From positions 1 to 15,715 of the forward strand of contig JAIWNN010000086.1 of assembly GCA_020216805.1 (NCBI GenBank): a stretch of DNA of 15,715 nucleotides. The letters run 5' to 3'. The DNA comes from Desulfarculus sp. (GTDB taxonomy: Bacteria; Desulfobacterota; Desulfarculia; Desulfarculales; Desulfarculaceae). A model generated the notes under the pieces. That model did not search any database and was not told the DNA's origin. It saw only the letters and a program-made list of their open reading frames with translations. Position numbers and translations under genes: made by a program. This document shows positions 8,132-15,715 of the stretch, piece after piece. Position 1 is the stretch's first letter; each line of letters begins with the position of its first letter.

Positions 8132-9970
8132 CTAGGCGCAACGCCGCGCGGCGGCCTCCGCCTCGAGGGCGTGGTGGGCGCGGAACACCCGCTCCCAGTC
8201 ATCGCCGCCGTAGCGCAGCATGGTCTTGGCGTCGGCGTCCATCAGGTCAGCCACCAGCAGGCAGTCCACCGCGTTGTTGAAATCCGGGTCCAGGTTCCAG
8301 GCGCAGCAGCGGGCGGCCAGCTTGAGGTACTGCTTGAACAGAATCGGCGGGGCGCTCCGGTCGCTCTCCACGTCGGCCACCACCTCCGCGACCTCGTCCC
8401 AGTCCGTCAGTTGGGCCGCCAGACGGCTGGCCAGGGCCTGGTCGCGCCGGTGGATGGTCACCGGGGTCTTGGGCGAGACCAGGGAGCTGAAGGGGCTGGG
8501 GTGGCGGGTCGCCAGGAAGTCGATCATCAGCTGGCGGCTGAAGGTCTGGTAGCGCCGGGAGACGCTGACCGGGCCGAAGAGGTGGCGGTAGCGGGGGTTG
8601 GCCAGGATGAAGCGGCCGATGCCTTTCCAGAGCAGCAACAGGGCCGAGTAGGAGCGCTGGTATTTCGCGGCGATGAACGAGCGGCCCATCTCCAGGGCGT
8701 GGGGCATCCGGGCGAAGAAATCGGGATGGAAGTTGAACAGGGTGCTGGTGTACAAACCGTCGACGCCCTGGCGGGCCAGGATCTGATCGACCAGGCCCAG
8801 GCGATAGCCACCGGCCAACTCGCCCTCCTTTTGGTTCCAGAGGCACAGGTGCAAGTAGTGGTCGTCGAACCGATCCAGGTCCTGGTCGCGACCGGTGCCC
8901 TCGCCCACCTGGCGAAAACAGATCTCGCGCTGGCGGCCGATCTCCCGCATCAGAGAGGGGATCTGCCGGCGGCGGGCGTAGAAGACCCGGAAGTCGCCCG
9001 AGACCAGCAGGGTCTGGTCGAGGGGCAGGGTCGCCACGTCCAGCCGCACCAGTTCGCGGTCCGGGGCGGGGGCGATGGCCTCGGGCCAGGTCCGGGCCGC
9101 GGGTTTGCGCCGGCGTTTGGGCCTGGCCTCCTGGGCCGGGGGGCGCCGGCCCAGAACCTGGGTGCGCAGGCGAAAGTATTGGGTGATGTCGGCCAGGCCC
9201 GCCTTGGCCCGGTAACGCTGGGGCGCGATCGCCCCGCCCACCACCAGTTCCAAACGACGTCCCTGTTTGTTGGCCAGCTCCCGGGGAAGGAGCGCGGTGC
9301 GCAGGCGGGGGTGGAGCAGACCGGCCAACTGGAACAGGGCGCTGTTGCGACCCCGGAAGTGCACCGTCACCACCGCGGCCCCGGTCTTCTGGGCGATGCG
9401 GGCCACCGCTGGGTTCCATTCCGGGTCGCTGACCTTCAGCTCGCGCACCTTCAGGTGGGCCACCTCCCCGGCCGGGAACATGGCCAGCAGTCCGCCTTGC
9501 TCCACCCAACGGATGGCCTCGCGCAAGGGCCCCACGTTGTTGCCCACCGCCCGGGTCTCGTGGAAGGGGTCCACCAGGATGAACAGGTCGCGCAGCTCCG
9601 GAATGCGGCCCAGCAGGTAATTGGCCATGATCTTGACGTCCGGCCGCCGGCGCAGCAGATGATGGGCCAGCACGATGCCCTCCAGACCGCCGAAGGGATG
9701 GTTGACCACCACCATGGCGGGGCCTTGCTGGGGGATGGACGCGAAGTCGGTCGGCGTGATCAGGCTGGAGACGGCCATCTCCTGGAGCACGTTGTCCAGA
9801 AATTGGCCGGGCGGGGAGCCAGGCCGACAGCGCAGATAGATCCGCTCCAGCTCCCGCAGGGAGAGCAGGCGGCCCAGGGTCTCTTGGAACCAGGCCAGCA
9901 AACGGGCCCGCACCGGGCCGAAAGATGTCAGGTCCAGACTGAACAGGCTTTGTTCCTGGGCTGTGCTCAT
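8132..9970 (-). CDS. Fused lysophospholipid acyltransferase / OlsB-like N-acyltransferase
   Basis: A 612-aa two-domain protein. Residues about 65-270 are a PlsC-like acyltransferase with NHPFGGLEG (His91; Glu replaces the usual Asp of the HX4D motif) and FPAGEV at 165-170. A basic linker (about 275-295, KRRRKP) follows. Residues about 305-560 resemble the OlsB/GNAT-like N-acyltransferase domain, with FRVFYARRRQIPSLMREIGRQREICFR and LWNQKEGELAGGYRLG. This order (OlsA-like then OlsB-like) is that of OlsF, which makes ornithine lipids: N-acylation of ornithine with a 3-hydroxyacyl chain, then O-acylation. Substrate assignment is inferred from architecture. ATG 9970 has a GAGGT Shine-Dalgarno. 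The downstream LysE exporter is probably co-transcribed. Confidence 0.85.
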   Translation of the reverse strand: MSTAQEQSLFSLDLTSFGPVRARLLAWFQETLGRLLSLRELERIYLRCRPGSPPGQFLDNVLQEMAVSSLITPTDFASIPQQGPAMVVVNHPFGGLEGIVLAHHLLRRRPDVKIMANYLLGRIPELRDLFILVDPFHETRAVGNNVGPLREAIRWVEQGGLLAMFPAGEVAHLKVRELKVSDPEWNPAVARIAQKTGAAVVTVHFRGRNSALFQLAGLLHPRLRTALLPRELANKQGRRLELVVGGAIAPQRYRAKAGLADITQYFRLRTQVLGRRPPAQEARPKRRRKPAARTWPEAIAPAPDRELVRLDVATLPLDQTLLVSGDFRVFYARRRQIPSLMREIGRQREICFRQVGEGTGRDQDLDRFDDHYLHLCLWNQKEGELAGGYRLGLVDQILARQGVDGLYTSTLFNFHPDFFARMPHALEMGRSFIAAKYQRSYSALLLLWKGIGRFILANPRYRHLFGPVSVSRRYQTFSRQLMIDFLATRHPSPFSSLVSPKTPVTIHRRDQALASRLAAQLTDWDEVAEVVADVESDRSAPPILFKQYLKLAARCCAWNLDPDFNNAVDCLLVADLMDADAKTMLRYGGDDWERVFRAHHALEAEAAARRCA

Positions 9971-11055: not shown

Positions 11056-11143
11056 TGGTGCCGGAGGAGAGACTCGAACTCTCATACCCGCAAGGAGTGG
11101 GGGATTTTGAGTCCCCTGCGTCTACCAATTCCGCCACTCCGGC
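11056..11143 (-). tRNA. tRNA-Leu (anticodon CAA), CCA encoded
   Basis: The reverse strand folds as a class II tRNA. Acceptor GCCGGAG (from 11143) pairs with CTCCGGC (11066-11060), and discriminator A and encoded CCA end at 11056. The D-arm contains GGTAGACGC, and the anticodon stem GGGGA/TCCCC encloses loop CTCAAAA, giving anticodon CAA (reads UUG, Leu). A long variable arm and T-arm GAGAG-TTCGAGT-CTCTC follow. The long variable arm and the anticodon agree on leucine. Confidence 0.95.
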
Positions 11144-12064: not shown

Positions 12065-12154
12065 GCGTGACGCCGTTCCAGGATGGCGGGGTTATTTATC
12101 CCTAAATCGATAGGTAAAAACCATCCATTCCACCCAAAGCGCGAGGGAGCGCCC

Positions 12155-15100
12155 ATGAGTGCAGGCAGAAACGTCACGGGAGCGGTGATGGTGGTGGGGG
12201 GCGGCATCGCCGGGATGCAGGCCGCCCTCGACCTGGCCAACTCCGGCTACTACGTCTATCTGGTGGAAAAAGGGCCCGCCATTGGTGGGGTCATGTCCCA
12301 ACTGGACAAGACCTTCCCCACCAATGACTGCGCCATGTGAATCATCTCCCCCAAACTGGTCGAGGTCGGCCGGCATATCAATATCGAGCTCCTCACGCTC
12401 TCCGAGGTGGTGGATATCGCGGGTGAGGAGGGCGACTTCACCGCCAAGGTGATCAGCCACCCGCGTTACGTGGACCTCAACAAGTGCATCGCCTGCGGGG
12501 CCTGCACCGGCAAATGCCCCAAAAAAGTCGCCAACGAGTACAACGAGGGTCTGGACACCCGCAAGGCCATCTACGTGCGCTACGCCCAGGCGGTCCCCCT
12601 CAAGTACGGCATCGATCCCGCCAACTGCCTGAAGATGACCAAGGGCAAGTGCGGCAACTGCGAGAAGCAGTGCCCCACCGGAGCCGTGAACTACGAGGAC
12701 AAGGAGGTCGTGCGCGACATCAAGGTCGGCTCGGTGATCCTGTCCGCCGGTTTCAAGGCCTTCGACCCCTCGGTCTACATCCAATACCAGTACAGCCAGT
12801 TCACCAACGTGGTCACCGCCCTGGAGTTCGAGCGCATCCTGGCCGCCAGCGGCCCCTGGATGGGCCATCTGGTGCGGCCCAGCGACGAGCGCGAGCCCAA
12901 GAAGATCGCCTGGATCCAGTGCGTGGGCTCCCGCGACGTGCATGCCTGCGACCACGCCTACTGCTCATCGGTCTGCTGCATGTACGCCATCAAGGAAGCG
13001 GCCATCGCCAAGGAGCACAGCCACCACGGGCTGGACGCGGCCATCTTCTACATGGACATGCGCACCTTCGGCAAGGACTTCGAGCGCTATCTCGAAAACG
13101 CCAAGGCCTCGGGCGTGCGCTTCATCCGCAGCCGCATCCACTCCATCGGCGAGCTGGAGGACAAGTCGCTGACCATCGAGTACGCCACCGAGGACGGCCA
13201 GGCCCGCGAGGAAGTCTTCGACATGGTGGTGCTCTCCCAGGGCATGGAGATCCCGGACAGCACCGTGGAGCTGGCCCGGAACCTGGGCATCGAGCTCAAG
13301 GCCAGCCGTTTCCTCAAGACCAACTCCTTCGCCCCGGTGGCCAGCAGCCGGCCCGGCATCTACGCCTGCGGCGCCCTGGCCGGGCCCAAGGACATCCCGC
13401 TGTCGGTGGTGGAGGCCTCGGCCGCGGCCTGCGCGGCGGCGGGCAAGCTCAGCAGCGCCCGGGGCTCCCTGGCCCAGGTCAAGGAGACCCCCAAGGCGGT
13501 GGACGTGCGGGGCGAGACCCCCAAGATCGGCGTGTTCGTCTGCTCCTGCGGCATCAACATCGCCGGCGTGGTGGACGTCAAGGCGGTGGCGGACTACGCC
13601 GCCAAGCTGCCTTTCGTGGAGTACGTGGAGAACAACCTGTTCACCTGCTCCCAGGACACCCAGGACAAGATGGCCCAGGTGGTCAAGGAGCGCGGCCTGA
13701 ACCGGGTGGTGGTGGCGGCCTGCACCCCGCGCACCCACGAGCCGCTGTTCCAGGAGACCCTGGTCAGCGCCGGACTCAACAAGTACCTCTTCGACATGGC
13801 CAACATCCGCAACCAGGACTCCTGGGTCCACTCCGGCGAGCCGGAGATGGCCACCGAGAAGGCCAAGGACCTGGTGCGCATGGCGGTGGCCAAGGCCAGC
13901 CTGTTGCAACCCCTGCAGGAGGTGCAGCTCACGGTCAACCCCGGAGCCCTGGTCATCGGCGGCGGCATCGCCGGCATGAACGCGGCCCTGGAGCTGGCCC
14001 GCCAGGGCTTCTCCTGCCACCTGGTGGAGCGCGACAACGCCCTGGGCGGCAACGCCCGCATGATCCGCACCACCGCCCTGGGCGAGGACGTGCAGGGCTA
14101 CATCCAGGACCTGGCCGCCCAGGTGCAGGGCAACCCCCTGATCACCACCCACCTGAACACCAGCGTCAAGACGGTGGACGGCTTCGTGGGCAACTTCAAG
14201 ACCACCCTGGCCGGCCCCGAGGGCGAGGAGGTCCTGGAGCACGGCGCGGCGATCATCGCCATCGGCGCCGGCGAATACAAGCCCACCGAATACCTCTATG
14301 GCCAGCACCCGGCGGTCAAGACCCACCTGGAGCTGGACGCGGCCATCATGGCCGGCGAGCTGGACCCCAAGAAGATCGGCACCGCGGTCTTCATCCAGTG
14401 CGTGGGCAGCCGCGAGCCCGAGCGTCCCTACTGCTCCAAGGTCTGCTGCACCCACTCGGTGGAAAGCGCCCTCTGGCTCAAGGAGCACAACCCCGACTGC
14501 CAGGTGGTGATCCTCTACCGCGACATGCGCACCTTCGGCGAGCGCGAGCTGCTCTACAAGGAAGCCCGCGAGAAGGGCGTGCTCTTCGTGCGCTACGACC
14601 TGGACCACAAGCCCCAGGCGATGGCCAAGGGCGACAAGGTCAGCCTCACCGTGCGCGACCACATCCTGGGCCGCGACCTGTTGATCGAGGCCGACCTGGT
14701 GGGCCTGGCCAGCGCCATCGTCAGCCACAAGGCCAACGACCTGGCCCAGATGTTCAAGGTGCCCCTGGACGAGGACGGCTGGTTCCTGGAGGCCCACCAG
14801 AAGCTGCGTCCGGTTGACTTCGCCACCGACGGCGTCTTCATGGCCGGCCTGGCCCACTATCCCAAGCCCATCGAGGAGGCGGTGGCCCAGGCCCAGGCCG
14901 CGGTGGCCCGGGCGGTGACGGTGCTGTCGAGCCCCGAGCTGAGCCTGCCGGGCACGGTGGCCTTCATCGACCAGAAGAAGTGCGTGGGCTGCGGCGTCTG
15001 CTGGACGGTCTGCCCCTACAACGCCATCAGCCAGGACGACAAGGGTCTGGCGGTGGTCAACGAGGCGCTGTGCAAGGGCTGCGGCACCTGCGTGGCCTCC

Positions 15101-15175
15101 TGCCGCTCCGGGGCTCCCAACCTGCGCGGCTTCACCACCCAGGACGTCATGGCCCAGATCGAGGCCATGTTGTAA
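12155..15175 (+). CDS. hdrA: Selenoprotein HdrA, tandem-module flavin/FeS heterodisulfide reductase subunit
   Basis: Read through TGA 12338-12340 as Sec62, this is a 1006-aa HdrA. Module 1: FAD motif GGGIAG at 15-20, [10 protein letters not shown], then C59-A-M-U62 where HdrA normally has CAMC. Two 4Fe-4S sites follow (Cys111/114/117/121 and Cys158/166/169/173), then CVGSRD...YCSSVCC (256-275). FVCSCG (Cys463/465) and a domain with [10 protein letters not shown] lead to module 2, with FAD motif GGGIAG at 602-607, [10 protein letters not shown] and CVGSRE...YCSKVCC from Cys749. A C-terminal ferredoxin domain has Cys943/946/949/953 and Cys973/976/979/983. HdrA is the flavin hub of cytoplasmic electron-bifurcating or confurcating complexes. 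ATG 12155 has GAGGGAG upstream. Codon use and family similarity continue unbroken past the TGA. A pseudogene is the alternative and looks unlikely. Confidence 0.9.
12338..12340 (+). other. In-frame TGA read as selenocysteine (HdrA Sec62)
   Basis: The codons around it read Asn-Asp-Cys-Ala-Met-[TGA]-[10 protein letters not shown]. Family members have Cys at the TGA position. The downstream frame stays open for 944 further sense codons. Recoding is inferred, not observed. Confidence 0.88.
12356..12373 (+). promoter_or_regulatory. Bacterial SECIS-like hairpin in hdrA
   Basis: CUGGUC (12356-12361) pairs with GGCCGG (12368-12373), six pairs of which two are G-U, around loop GAGGUC. The loop begins with G and holds a GGU, as in the Escherichia coli fdhF element. 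It starts 21 bases after the TGA, inside the usual bacterial range of about 16-37. Fold judged by eye. Confidence 0.65.
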
Positions 15176-15193: not shown

Positions 15194-15634
15194 ATGAGTG
15201 ATCATGCCGAGTTCCAGCCGCGCATCGCGGCCTTTCTGTGCAACTGGTGCTCCTATGGAGCCGCGGACCTGGCCGGCGTCAGCCGTCTCCAGTATCCGCC
15301 CAACATCCACGTGATCCGCATCCCCTGCACCGGCCGGATGAGCCCCAAGTTCATCCTCCAGGCCTTCCGCAAGGGAGTCGACGGGGTCTGGGTCTCCGGC
15401 TGACACCCGGGCGACTGCCACTATATTGCTGGCAACATGTTCGCCCGGCGGCGGTTCGCCGTCCTGAAAAACCTGCTGGAGTACGTGGGCCTGGAGCCCG
15501 GTCGTCTGCACTTCTCCTGGATCTCCTCGGCCGAGGCCGAGAAGTTCCAAAAAACCGTCACCGCCGTCACCGAGGCGGTCAAGGCCCTGGGGCCGGCCCA
15601 ACACCTGATCAAAGACATCCGGAAGGTGGCCTGA
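15194..15634 (+). CDS. mvhD: Selenoprotein MvhD, 2Fe-2S electron-transfer subunit
   Basis: Read through TGA 15401-15403 as Sec70, this is a 146-aa MvhD/FrhD-family protein of normal length. Conserved elements in order: [18 protein letters not shown] (Cys16, Cys19), [19 protein letters not shown] (Cys45), [10 protein letters not shown]70-HPGDC75HY. The family has Cys where U70 stands and uses these residues around a 2Fe-2S cluster. MvhD links HdrA to an electron donor or acceptor partner, a hydrogenase in methanogens and often formate dehydrogenase or other modules in sulfate reducers. ATG 15194 lies 18 bases after hdrA with AAGGAGCGAGGGG as Shine-Dalgarno region. Its stop overlaps the next start by one base (TGATG). 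The genes are clearly one operon. Confidence 0.9.
15401..15403 (+). other. In-frame TGA read as selenocysteine (MvhD Sec70)
   Basis: The TGA falls exactly at the first Cys of the invariant G-C-H-P-G-D-C-H-Y block. Everything on both sides is intact and in one frame to a natural stop at 15632-15634. Recoding is inferred from conservation and the adjacent hairpin. Confidence 0.9.
15407..15448 (+). promoter_or_regulatory. Bacterial SECIS-like compound hairpin in mvhD
   Basis: Starting three bases after the TGA, CCGGGCGA (15407-15414) pairs perfectly with UCGCCCGG (15441-15448). Inside it, after an asymmetric internal loop, UGCCA (15416-15420) pairs with UGGCA (15430-15434) around a 9-base loop CUAUAUUGC. 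The apical loop starts 17 bases after the TGA. Size (42 bases) and position fit a bacterial SECIS. The loop lacks an early G, so this element is less canonical than the hdrA one. Confidence 0.6.
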
Positions 15635-15715
15635 TGGACAATCAAGCCATAGCCCAGCGGATCCGCGAGGTGGCCAAGCGGCTTTTGTCGGAGGGCAAGG
15701 TGGACGTGGTGATCG
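15634..15715 (+). CDS. N-terminus of a third hdr-operon protein (truncated)
   Basis: ATG 15634 overlaps the mvhD stop by one base and has GGAAGGTGG upstream. The 27 visible residues, with IREVAKRLLSEGKVDVVI, resemble the N-terminus of 4Fe-4S ferredoxin or F420-hydrogenase-beta-like proteins found beside hdrA/mvhD in sulfate reducers; I recall that similarity and cannot test it here. The window ends inside the gene. Close coupling argues that it belongs to the same electron-transfer complex. Confidence 0.7.
   Translation, partial: MDNQAIAQRIREVAKRLLSEGKVDVVI

Follow-up and report, generated by a model that had tools for sequence, protein, structure and literature searches.

An hdrA-like gene with an in-frame TGA at a conserved cysteine site in a Desulfarculus genome: a highly probable selenoprotein HdrA, with the adjacent MvhD probably recoded as well

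The window analyzed here is a stretch of 15,715 nucleotides of a Desulfarculus sp., which represents contig 22 of a 1.83-Mb MAG that consists of 171 contigs and is 55% complete. Toward its end, the forward strand carries an hdrA-like gene (positions 12155 to 15175), an mvhD-like gene (15194 to 15634), and the start of a next gene (15634 to 15715), which is cut by the contig end and resembles, by eye, a 320-aa 4Fe-4S protein that follows mvhD in genome G008. A tRNA gene is located on the minus strand at 11059 to 11143 (Rfam, 57 bits), and the region from 8132 to 9970 encodes a protein like the ornithine-lipid synthase OlsF, with a score of 374 bits that is below the cut-off of 620.

The hdrA-like gene encodes 1006 residues when its in-frame TGA is read as selenocysteine (Sec). 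According to the reading frame, HdrA models, Pfam, and the PDB, the protein comprises two HdrA-type flavin halves and ferredoxin modules. The sole internal stop of the frame is the TGA at 12338 to 12340 on the forward strand (residue 62), in the context FPTNDCAM[TGA]IISPK, and the frame is terminated by TAA. The preliminary description had reported one interrupting TGA at exactly this place, within CAM[TGA]IISPK, and this observation is confirmed. The TGA occupies the second position of a C-x-x-[C/U] motif. Upstream of it, the translation and Pfam FAD/NAD(P)-binding matches revealed a GxGxxG dinucleotide-binding motif (GGGIAG, residues 15 to 20; 12197 to 12214, forward strand). Mechanical ORF calling splits the gene into an ORF of 85 aa (12083 to 12340, with 61 codons from 12155) and an ORF of 922 aa (12407 to 15175), and the GxGxxG motif falls in the short N-terminal ORF. 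A split into a stub and a 922-aa fragment devoid of the FAD motif had been foreseen, with the stub given as 86 aa. The match to the HdrA profile NF040770 had 954.9 bits, with a curated cut-off of 1100, and all three HdrA models matched by the gene gave scores below their curated cut-offs. PDB HdrA chains match the protein with an E value of 2e-192, and the GxGxxG FAD fold, the CxxC motif, and the ferredoxin modules of HdrA are all present.

Homologues of HdrA were searched for in 98 genomes, 20 of which belong to the family Desulfarculaceae. Among the matches listed, all 12 full-length family genes with at least 77% identity (that of the window and 11 others, from 12 of the 20 family genomes) contained one TGA each. 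An additional match of 78% identity in G018 spans only residues 451 to 1005 and is therefore uninformative on residue 62. A set of 90 HdrAs was assembled from the 50 TGA-bearing rows among the matches listed, together with 40 of the stop-free rows. The motif was found in all of them, and residue 62 fell into one alignment column that contained TGA in 50 cases and TGC or TGT in 40 cases. Both C59 and Cys/Sec62 were present in 90 of the 90 aligned proteins, whereby the motif had also served to pick the reading frame. The proposal that the TGA takes the place of the conserved second Cys of HdrA, together with the suggested alignment of U62 to Cys-containing HdrA, was thus borne out, as all 40 homologues examined that lack the TGA have Cys at this site. 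A second set of 80 titled loci, partly from the same organisms as the first and with any residue permitted at the site, yielded 90 motifs, 67 with TGA and 23 with Cys. One Desulfarculus sp. MAG (83%), one Desulfarculaceae MAG (78%), and Desulfocarbo indianensis (77%) are among the best matches to the window HdrA in the titled records.

A FastTree phylogeny of the 90 HdrAs was calculated with columns 55 to 80 left out, and the distribution of the Sec and Cys states on this tree requires at least 7 changes. The 12 Sec HdrA genes of the family (support 87) are the sister group of 10 Cys paralogues of the same family. The MAG of the window is represented by one Sec and one Cys HdrA, which shows that both versions coexist in one genome, and each of them adjoins an MvhD of the same kind. 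Two HdrA genes contained further in-frame stops. One of them (L088, G085:C1:307436-310441) has a second TGA at codon 455 (VFVCY[U]GANIG), in a column where the remaining 89 aligned HdrAs have Cys, and downstream of this TGA lies a 10-bp hairpin with -17.6 kcal/mol. The other (L078, G072:C43:4194-7229) has, in addition to its TGA, a TAG at codon 962 in the C-terminal ferredoxin module.

Shortly after the UGA of hdrA, a SECIS-type hairpin is located at 12356 to 12373 of the forward strand. Its 7-bp stem is formed by 12356 to 12362 (CTGGTCG) and 12367 to 12373 (CGGCCGG), with the loop AGGU at 12363 to 12366 (AGGT in the DNA). A hairpin with a GGU-containing loop had already been described at this place, but its start had been put 21 bases after the TGA. 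In fact, the hairpin starts at a distance of 15 nt from the TGA (18 nt when counted from the first base of the codon), and 22 nt lie between the TGA and the loop.

The assignment is based on folds, synonymous constraint, and the conservation of the 18-mer. At codons +6 to +11, synonymous identity in same-residue pairs was 0.62-1.00 in Sec genes versus 0.20-0.49 in Cys genes, and codon +8 was GAG in all 50 Sec HdrA genes. The six-codon window that starts at residue 68 had the largest Sec-minus-Cys synonymous excess of 985 windows, with a value of 0.44 compared to a mean of 0.02 and a standard deviation of 0.06 over the whole gene. Within the family alone, the hairpin stretch is fully invariant, as are a few other windows. 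In the first set, 36 of 50 Sec genes had the exact 18-mer after the site, compared with 0 of 40 Cys genes; the second, partly overlapping set gave 56 of 67 for Sec and 0 of 23 for Cys genes. When stabilities were compared with those of synonymous shuffles, the mean z was -1.72 for the 50 Sec genes (24 distinct fragments) and +0.28 for the 40 Cys genes, and p values of 0.05 or below were obtained for 38% of the Sec fragments and 0% of the Cys fragments. For the hairpin of the window hdrA alone, the stability was not significant (p 0.068, as 6.8% of the synonymous-codon shuffles reached it), at least 8 other stretches of the same gene have a lower stability z, and a search of the whole window with Rfam at gathering thresholds retrieved one tRNA and no SECIS family. 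Therefore, the stability in a single gene was dropped as a proof of a SECIS, and the hairpin claim rests on the comparison of genes. Other lineages contain at least two further hairpin types with the loops GGUCG and GGUC, the letters of which were read by eye and partly from folds. For four TGA genes whose hairpins are of another type (L066, L071, L073, and L098), z values above -0.2 were obtained over the codons tested. Three loci (L208, L221, and L232) contained two Sec-HdrA motifs each, the second with another hairpin (GATGTC-GGTC-GACATC).

The mvhD-like gene (15194 to 15634, forward strand) encodes a delta subunit of the FlpD/MvhD type, as indicated by its translation and a PF02662 match of 181 bits. 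It has 146 residues when an in-frame TGA is read as Sec, and its terminator is also TGA. This second in-frame TGA of the window, which is absent from the preliminary description, is located at 15401 to 15403 (residue 70, GVWVSG[U]HPGDCHY). The corresponding site is Cys in the 5 solved (PDB) relatives shown, and the gene combines an FlpD domain with a TGA at a conserved Cys. The MvhD matches with 86-99% identity, 15 of 15 from 14 genomes, contained one TGA each among the matches listed. On the basis of folding energies, a candidate SECIS hairpin of mvhD was placed at 15406 to 15450 (forward strand), with a lower stem around CCGGGCGA/TCGCCCGG and an upper stem TGCCA/TGGCA (15416 to 15420 and 15430 to 15434). 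The folding energies of the 48 nt after the TGA were -18.2 to -23.5 kcal/mol in 8 Sec genes versus -7.5 to -12.4 kcal/mol in 4 Cys genes, all chosen by us, and over 36 nt the same Sec and Cys genes did not differ.

The states of HdrA and MvhD tended to agree. At 12 family loci with Sec-HdrA, MvhD has a TGA too, and 18 Cys-MvhD places, among those listed, sit in loci with Cys-HdrA; L025 (G053), with Sec-HdrA and Cys-MvhD, is an exception. An MvhD was present within 400 bases of 55 of the 90 HdrA genes, and in 51 of these 55 adjacent pairs, among the matches listed, the states were identical (23 Sec-Sec and 28 Cys-Cys). Two pairs were Sec-Cys in the order HdrA-MvhD (G053:C406 and G009:C1), and two were Cys-Sec (G069:C30 and G016:C10). 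The input of this count was the 90 HdrA genes and part of the MvhD places listed, and the pairs share ancestry. The count omits HdrA rows whose match starts only at about residue 134-164, some of which lie beside a TGA-MvhD (e.g., G071:C2 and G014:C1:1296855), and at least three further Cys-Sec pairs (G085:C2, G094:C42, and G021:C72) are outside the table, their HdrAs not being among the 90. The position of the TGA inside MvhD was read for part of the loci.

The preliminary description had proposed a search for selA, selB, selD, and tRNA-Sec (selC) in the host genome, and the three protein genes were found. SelA (602 bits), SelB (379 bits), and SelD (364 bits) of the host MAG all scored over the curated cut-offs, and SelD has its own TGA (KLAEKARAAG[U]AAKIGPG, residue 11 of the translated piece). 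A tRNA-Sec was not found with the Rfam model in the MAG, which is 55% complete, and four weak matches to the model turned out to be two tRNA-Ser, one tRNA-Trp, and one tRNA-Gly. Of 12 family loci submitted to ARAGORN, 11 yielded a tRNA-SeC; they correspond to 11 of the 20 family genomes, among them G002 and G004, which share the genus of the host. Two genomes with TGA-HdrA and selA, G003 (97% complete) and G016 (93%), yielded no tRNA-Sec match above 48 bits (best about 44 bits, cut-off 47). The selA gene was over the cut-off in 27 of the 30 genomes that have a TGA-HdrA among the matches listed and was not found in the other three (G001, G005, and G067; 70-79% complete). As selA occurs in 73 of the 98 genomes of the whole set, its presence is only a mild discriminator for TGA-HdrA. 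A match of 56.7 bits to the tRNA-Sec model was observed just upstream of a Cys hdrA in G002 (C1:54779-54871) and is possibly a tRNA-Ser; the same genome also has a clear tRNA-Sec at C101.

In three relatives (G002, G008, and G014), the operon continues to an HdrC-like protein with a CCG domain, which also contains an in-frame TGA (LLLPE[U]GHAY). Contig 22 ends before the expected place of this gene, and the best HdrC/CCG match of the host MAG is 50% identical and has no stop, but Cys at the site. At identities of at least 82%, 16 family matches were retrieved from 15 genomes, query included, with one TGA each. Of 24 HdrC/CCG loci examined, 20 were Sec, 2 were Cys, and 2 (L179 and L183) were unmatched by the motif pattern. 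The Sec loci (L161-L176, L181, L182, L184, and L185) have the motif PE[U]GHA and lie either further along the operon or at related loci. Hairpins of the types GGAACTA-GGCT-TAGTTTC and GACCA-GGCT-TGGTC follow the TGA and were tested with 16 distinct fragments from the 20 Sec loci. In total, 92.9% of the cells were paired, and two pairs were changed on both sides (GC to AU and UA to CG). The cells paired, the doubly changed cells, and the covariation score were each reached by 0 of 500 shuffles, whereas 443 of the shuffles attained the number of doubly changed pairs and all 500 the number of pair types. In 3 and 5 of the 16 sequences, respectively, the two outer pairs are not formed. The HdrC/CCG search also gave rows of about 27% identity with in-frame TAG or TAA; three of these stretches were retrieved, and for one, G000:C91, the reading was clean, and the TAG was the gene's own end. 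Between the mvhD and HdrC/CCG genes of G002, there is a gene for a protein of 279 residues that belongs to the hydrogenase-gamma FAD/NAD type, which suggests NAD(P)H as partner.

The in-frame stop of hdrA is almost certainly translated as selenocysteine by the cell, and four other explanations have to be weighed against this reading. A sequencing or assembly error, or a decaying pseudogene, might be suspected in a MAG fragmented into 171 contigs that also contains an intact, 75% identical Cys paralogue. However, the same codon is TGA in 11 other family assemblies and in 50 genes of the set, the 1006 codons contain no further stop, and the synonymous constraint is peculiar to TGA genes, so that this possibility is extremely improbable. 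If the UGA were a true stop, the cell would make a short peptide from the N terminus and, separately, a C-terminal HdrA, for which mechanical ORFs of 85 and 922 aa indeed exist. Yet termination would cut the CxxC motif within a continuous conserved domain, at a site where the homologues examined that lack the TGA have Cys and downstream of which a conserved hairpin lies, and the same arrangement is found in three subunits of one operon in relatives. We regard true termination as very unlikely.

A genome-wide reassignment of UGA to Trp or Cys has a negligible probability. No supporting point was found for it, TGA is the ordinary stop of 5 of the 10 other assigned genes of the window and of MvhD itself, and SelA, SelB, and SelD are present. 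In principle, an 18-mer that is nearly identical across families could mark another site, e.g., a regulatory one, and the downstream sequence would then be kept for a different reason while readthrough inserts another residue. The absence of the 18-mer from all Cys genes examined (0 of 40 and 0 of 23), the different hairpins that other TGA lineages have at nearby spacing (read by eye), and the compensatory changes in the HdrC/CCG hairpin argue against this, and its probability is as minute as that of an error or pseudogene.

Taken together, the selenoprotein interpretation of the preliminary description is supported, and we are highly confident that the following explanation is correct as a whole. 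SelB with Sec-tRNA(Sec) would recognize the hairpin at 12356 to 12373 and insert selenocysteine at UGA 62, so that Sec62 becomes part of the CxxU motif in the thioredoxin-reductase-like first FAD half of HdrA, and MvhD would be recoded in the same manner at residue 70. In relatives, the operon also comprises a 4Fe-4S protein, an NAD(P)H-type FAD/Fe-S module (G002), and the HdrC/CCG-domain subunit with a predicted third Sec. For the strain of the window, we infer that the subunits assemble into a soluble flavin-based electron-bifurcating or -confurcating Hdr complex, in which selenolates at Cys sites along the electron path may lower the potential or protect redox-active thiols. Sec62 itself may serve as a cluster ligand, pair with C59 as thiol and selenol, or have a tuning effect near the FAD.

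On a broader scale, it is likely that Desulfarculaceae have one operon for an electron-bifurcating Hdr complex with Sec in three subunits (HdrA CxxU, MvhD G[U]HPGDCH, and HdrC/CCG PE[U]GHA) beside a TGA-free paralogous set in the same genome, and that some HdrAs (G085) have a second Sec at an invariant Cys. If this is true, the Sec operon and the TGA-free set would form a natural matched pair for studying the role of selenium in flavin-based electron bifurcation. Compared with Sec-HdrA, a known kind, the triple-Sec operon is of more interest. The co-occurring Sec and Cys paralogues offer a ready comparison of selenium and sulfur at the same site, and the conserved 18-base hairpin could serve as a simple marker to find more Sec-HdrA. 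Since these genes are split by mechanical gene calling, it is easy to misread Sec-HdrA and Sec-MvhD in sulfate reducers.

Sec in HdrA is known from methanogens, in which HdrA and MvhD are parts of a flavin-based electron-bifurcating complex and an MvhD-type delta subunit with Sec (VhuD/MvhD) also occurs. The window MvhD is likewise a delta subunit of this type with a predicted Sec, but it is bacterial. In the HdrA of the PDB entries 9sfi and 9t1s (CoB-CoM heterodisulfide reductase iron-sulfur subunit A), the position that aligns ungapped to U62 is given as the letter X (9sfi_A, PTDDCAM-X-ILAPK), and by our reading this X is a non-standard residue, Sec. A delta subunit of the MvhD type is part of the 9sfi entry as well, as is an HdrC2 that bears the name H2/formate:CoB-CoM heterodisulfide,ferredoxin reductase. 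Its HdrA has 658 residues, whereas that of the window is bacterial and has 1006 residues with two HdrA halves. In the methanogen HdrA 5odc_A and its relatives, the FAD and ferredoxin domains match, and U62 aligns ungapped to Cys197; the differences are Cys instead of Sec and another domain order (window residues 454-619 correspond to residues 2-167 of 5odc_A). The Cys HdrA and Cys MvhD paralogues of the same MAG (G000:C53:85-3626) are 75% and 80% identical to the window proteins. This HdrA paralogue (G000:C53:630-3626), aligned over residues 8-1006, adjoins the Cys MvhD, has TGC at the site, and lacks the 18-base hairpin sequence. The same TGA place and the same 18-base hairpin are present in the Sec-HdrA of other Desulfobacterota, e.g., Desulfocarbo indianensis SCBM (77% identical) and Desulfatibacillum alkenivorans DSM 16219 (59% identical), both of which are other species than that of the window. 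In summary, Sec-HdrA is already known as a kind, and the window represents a sound further case that is not new in kind.
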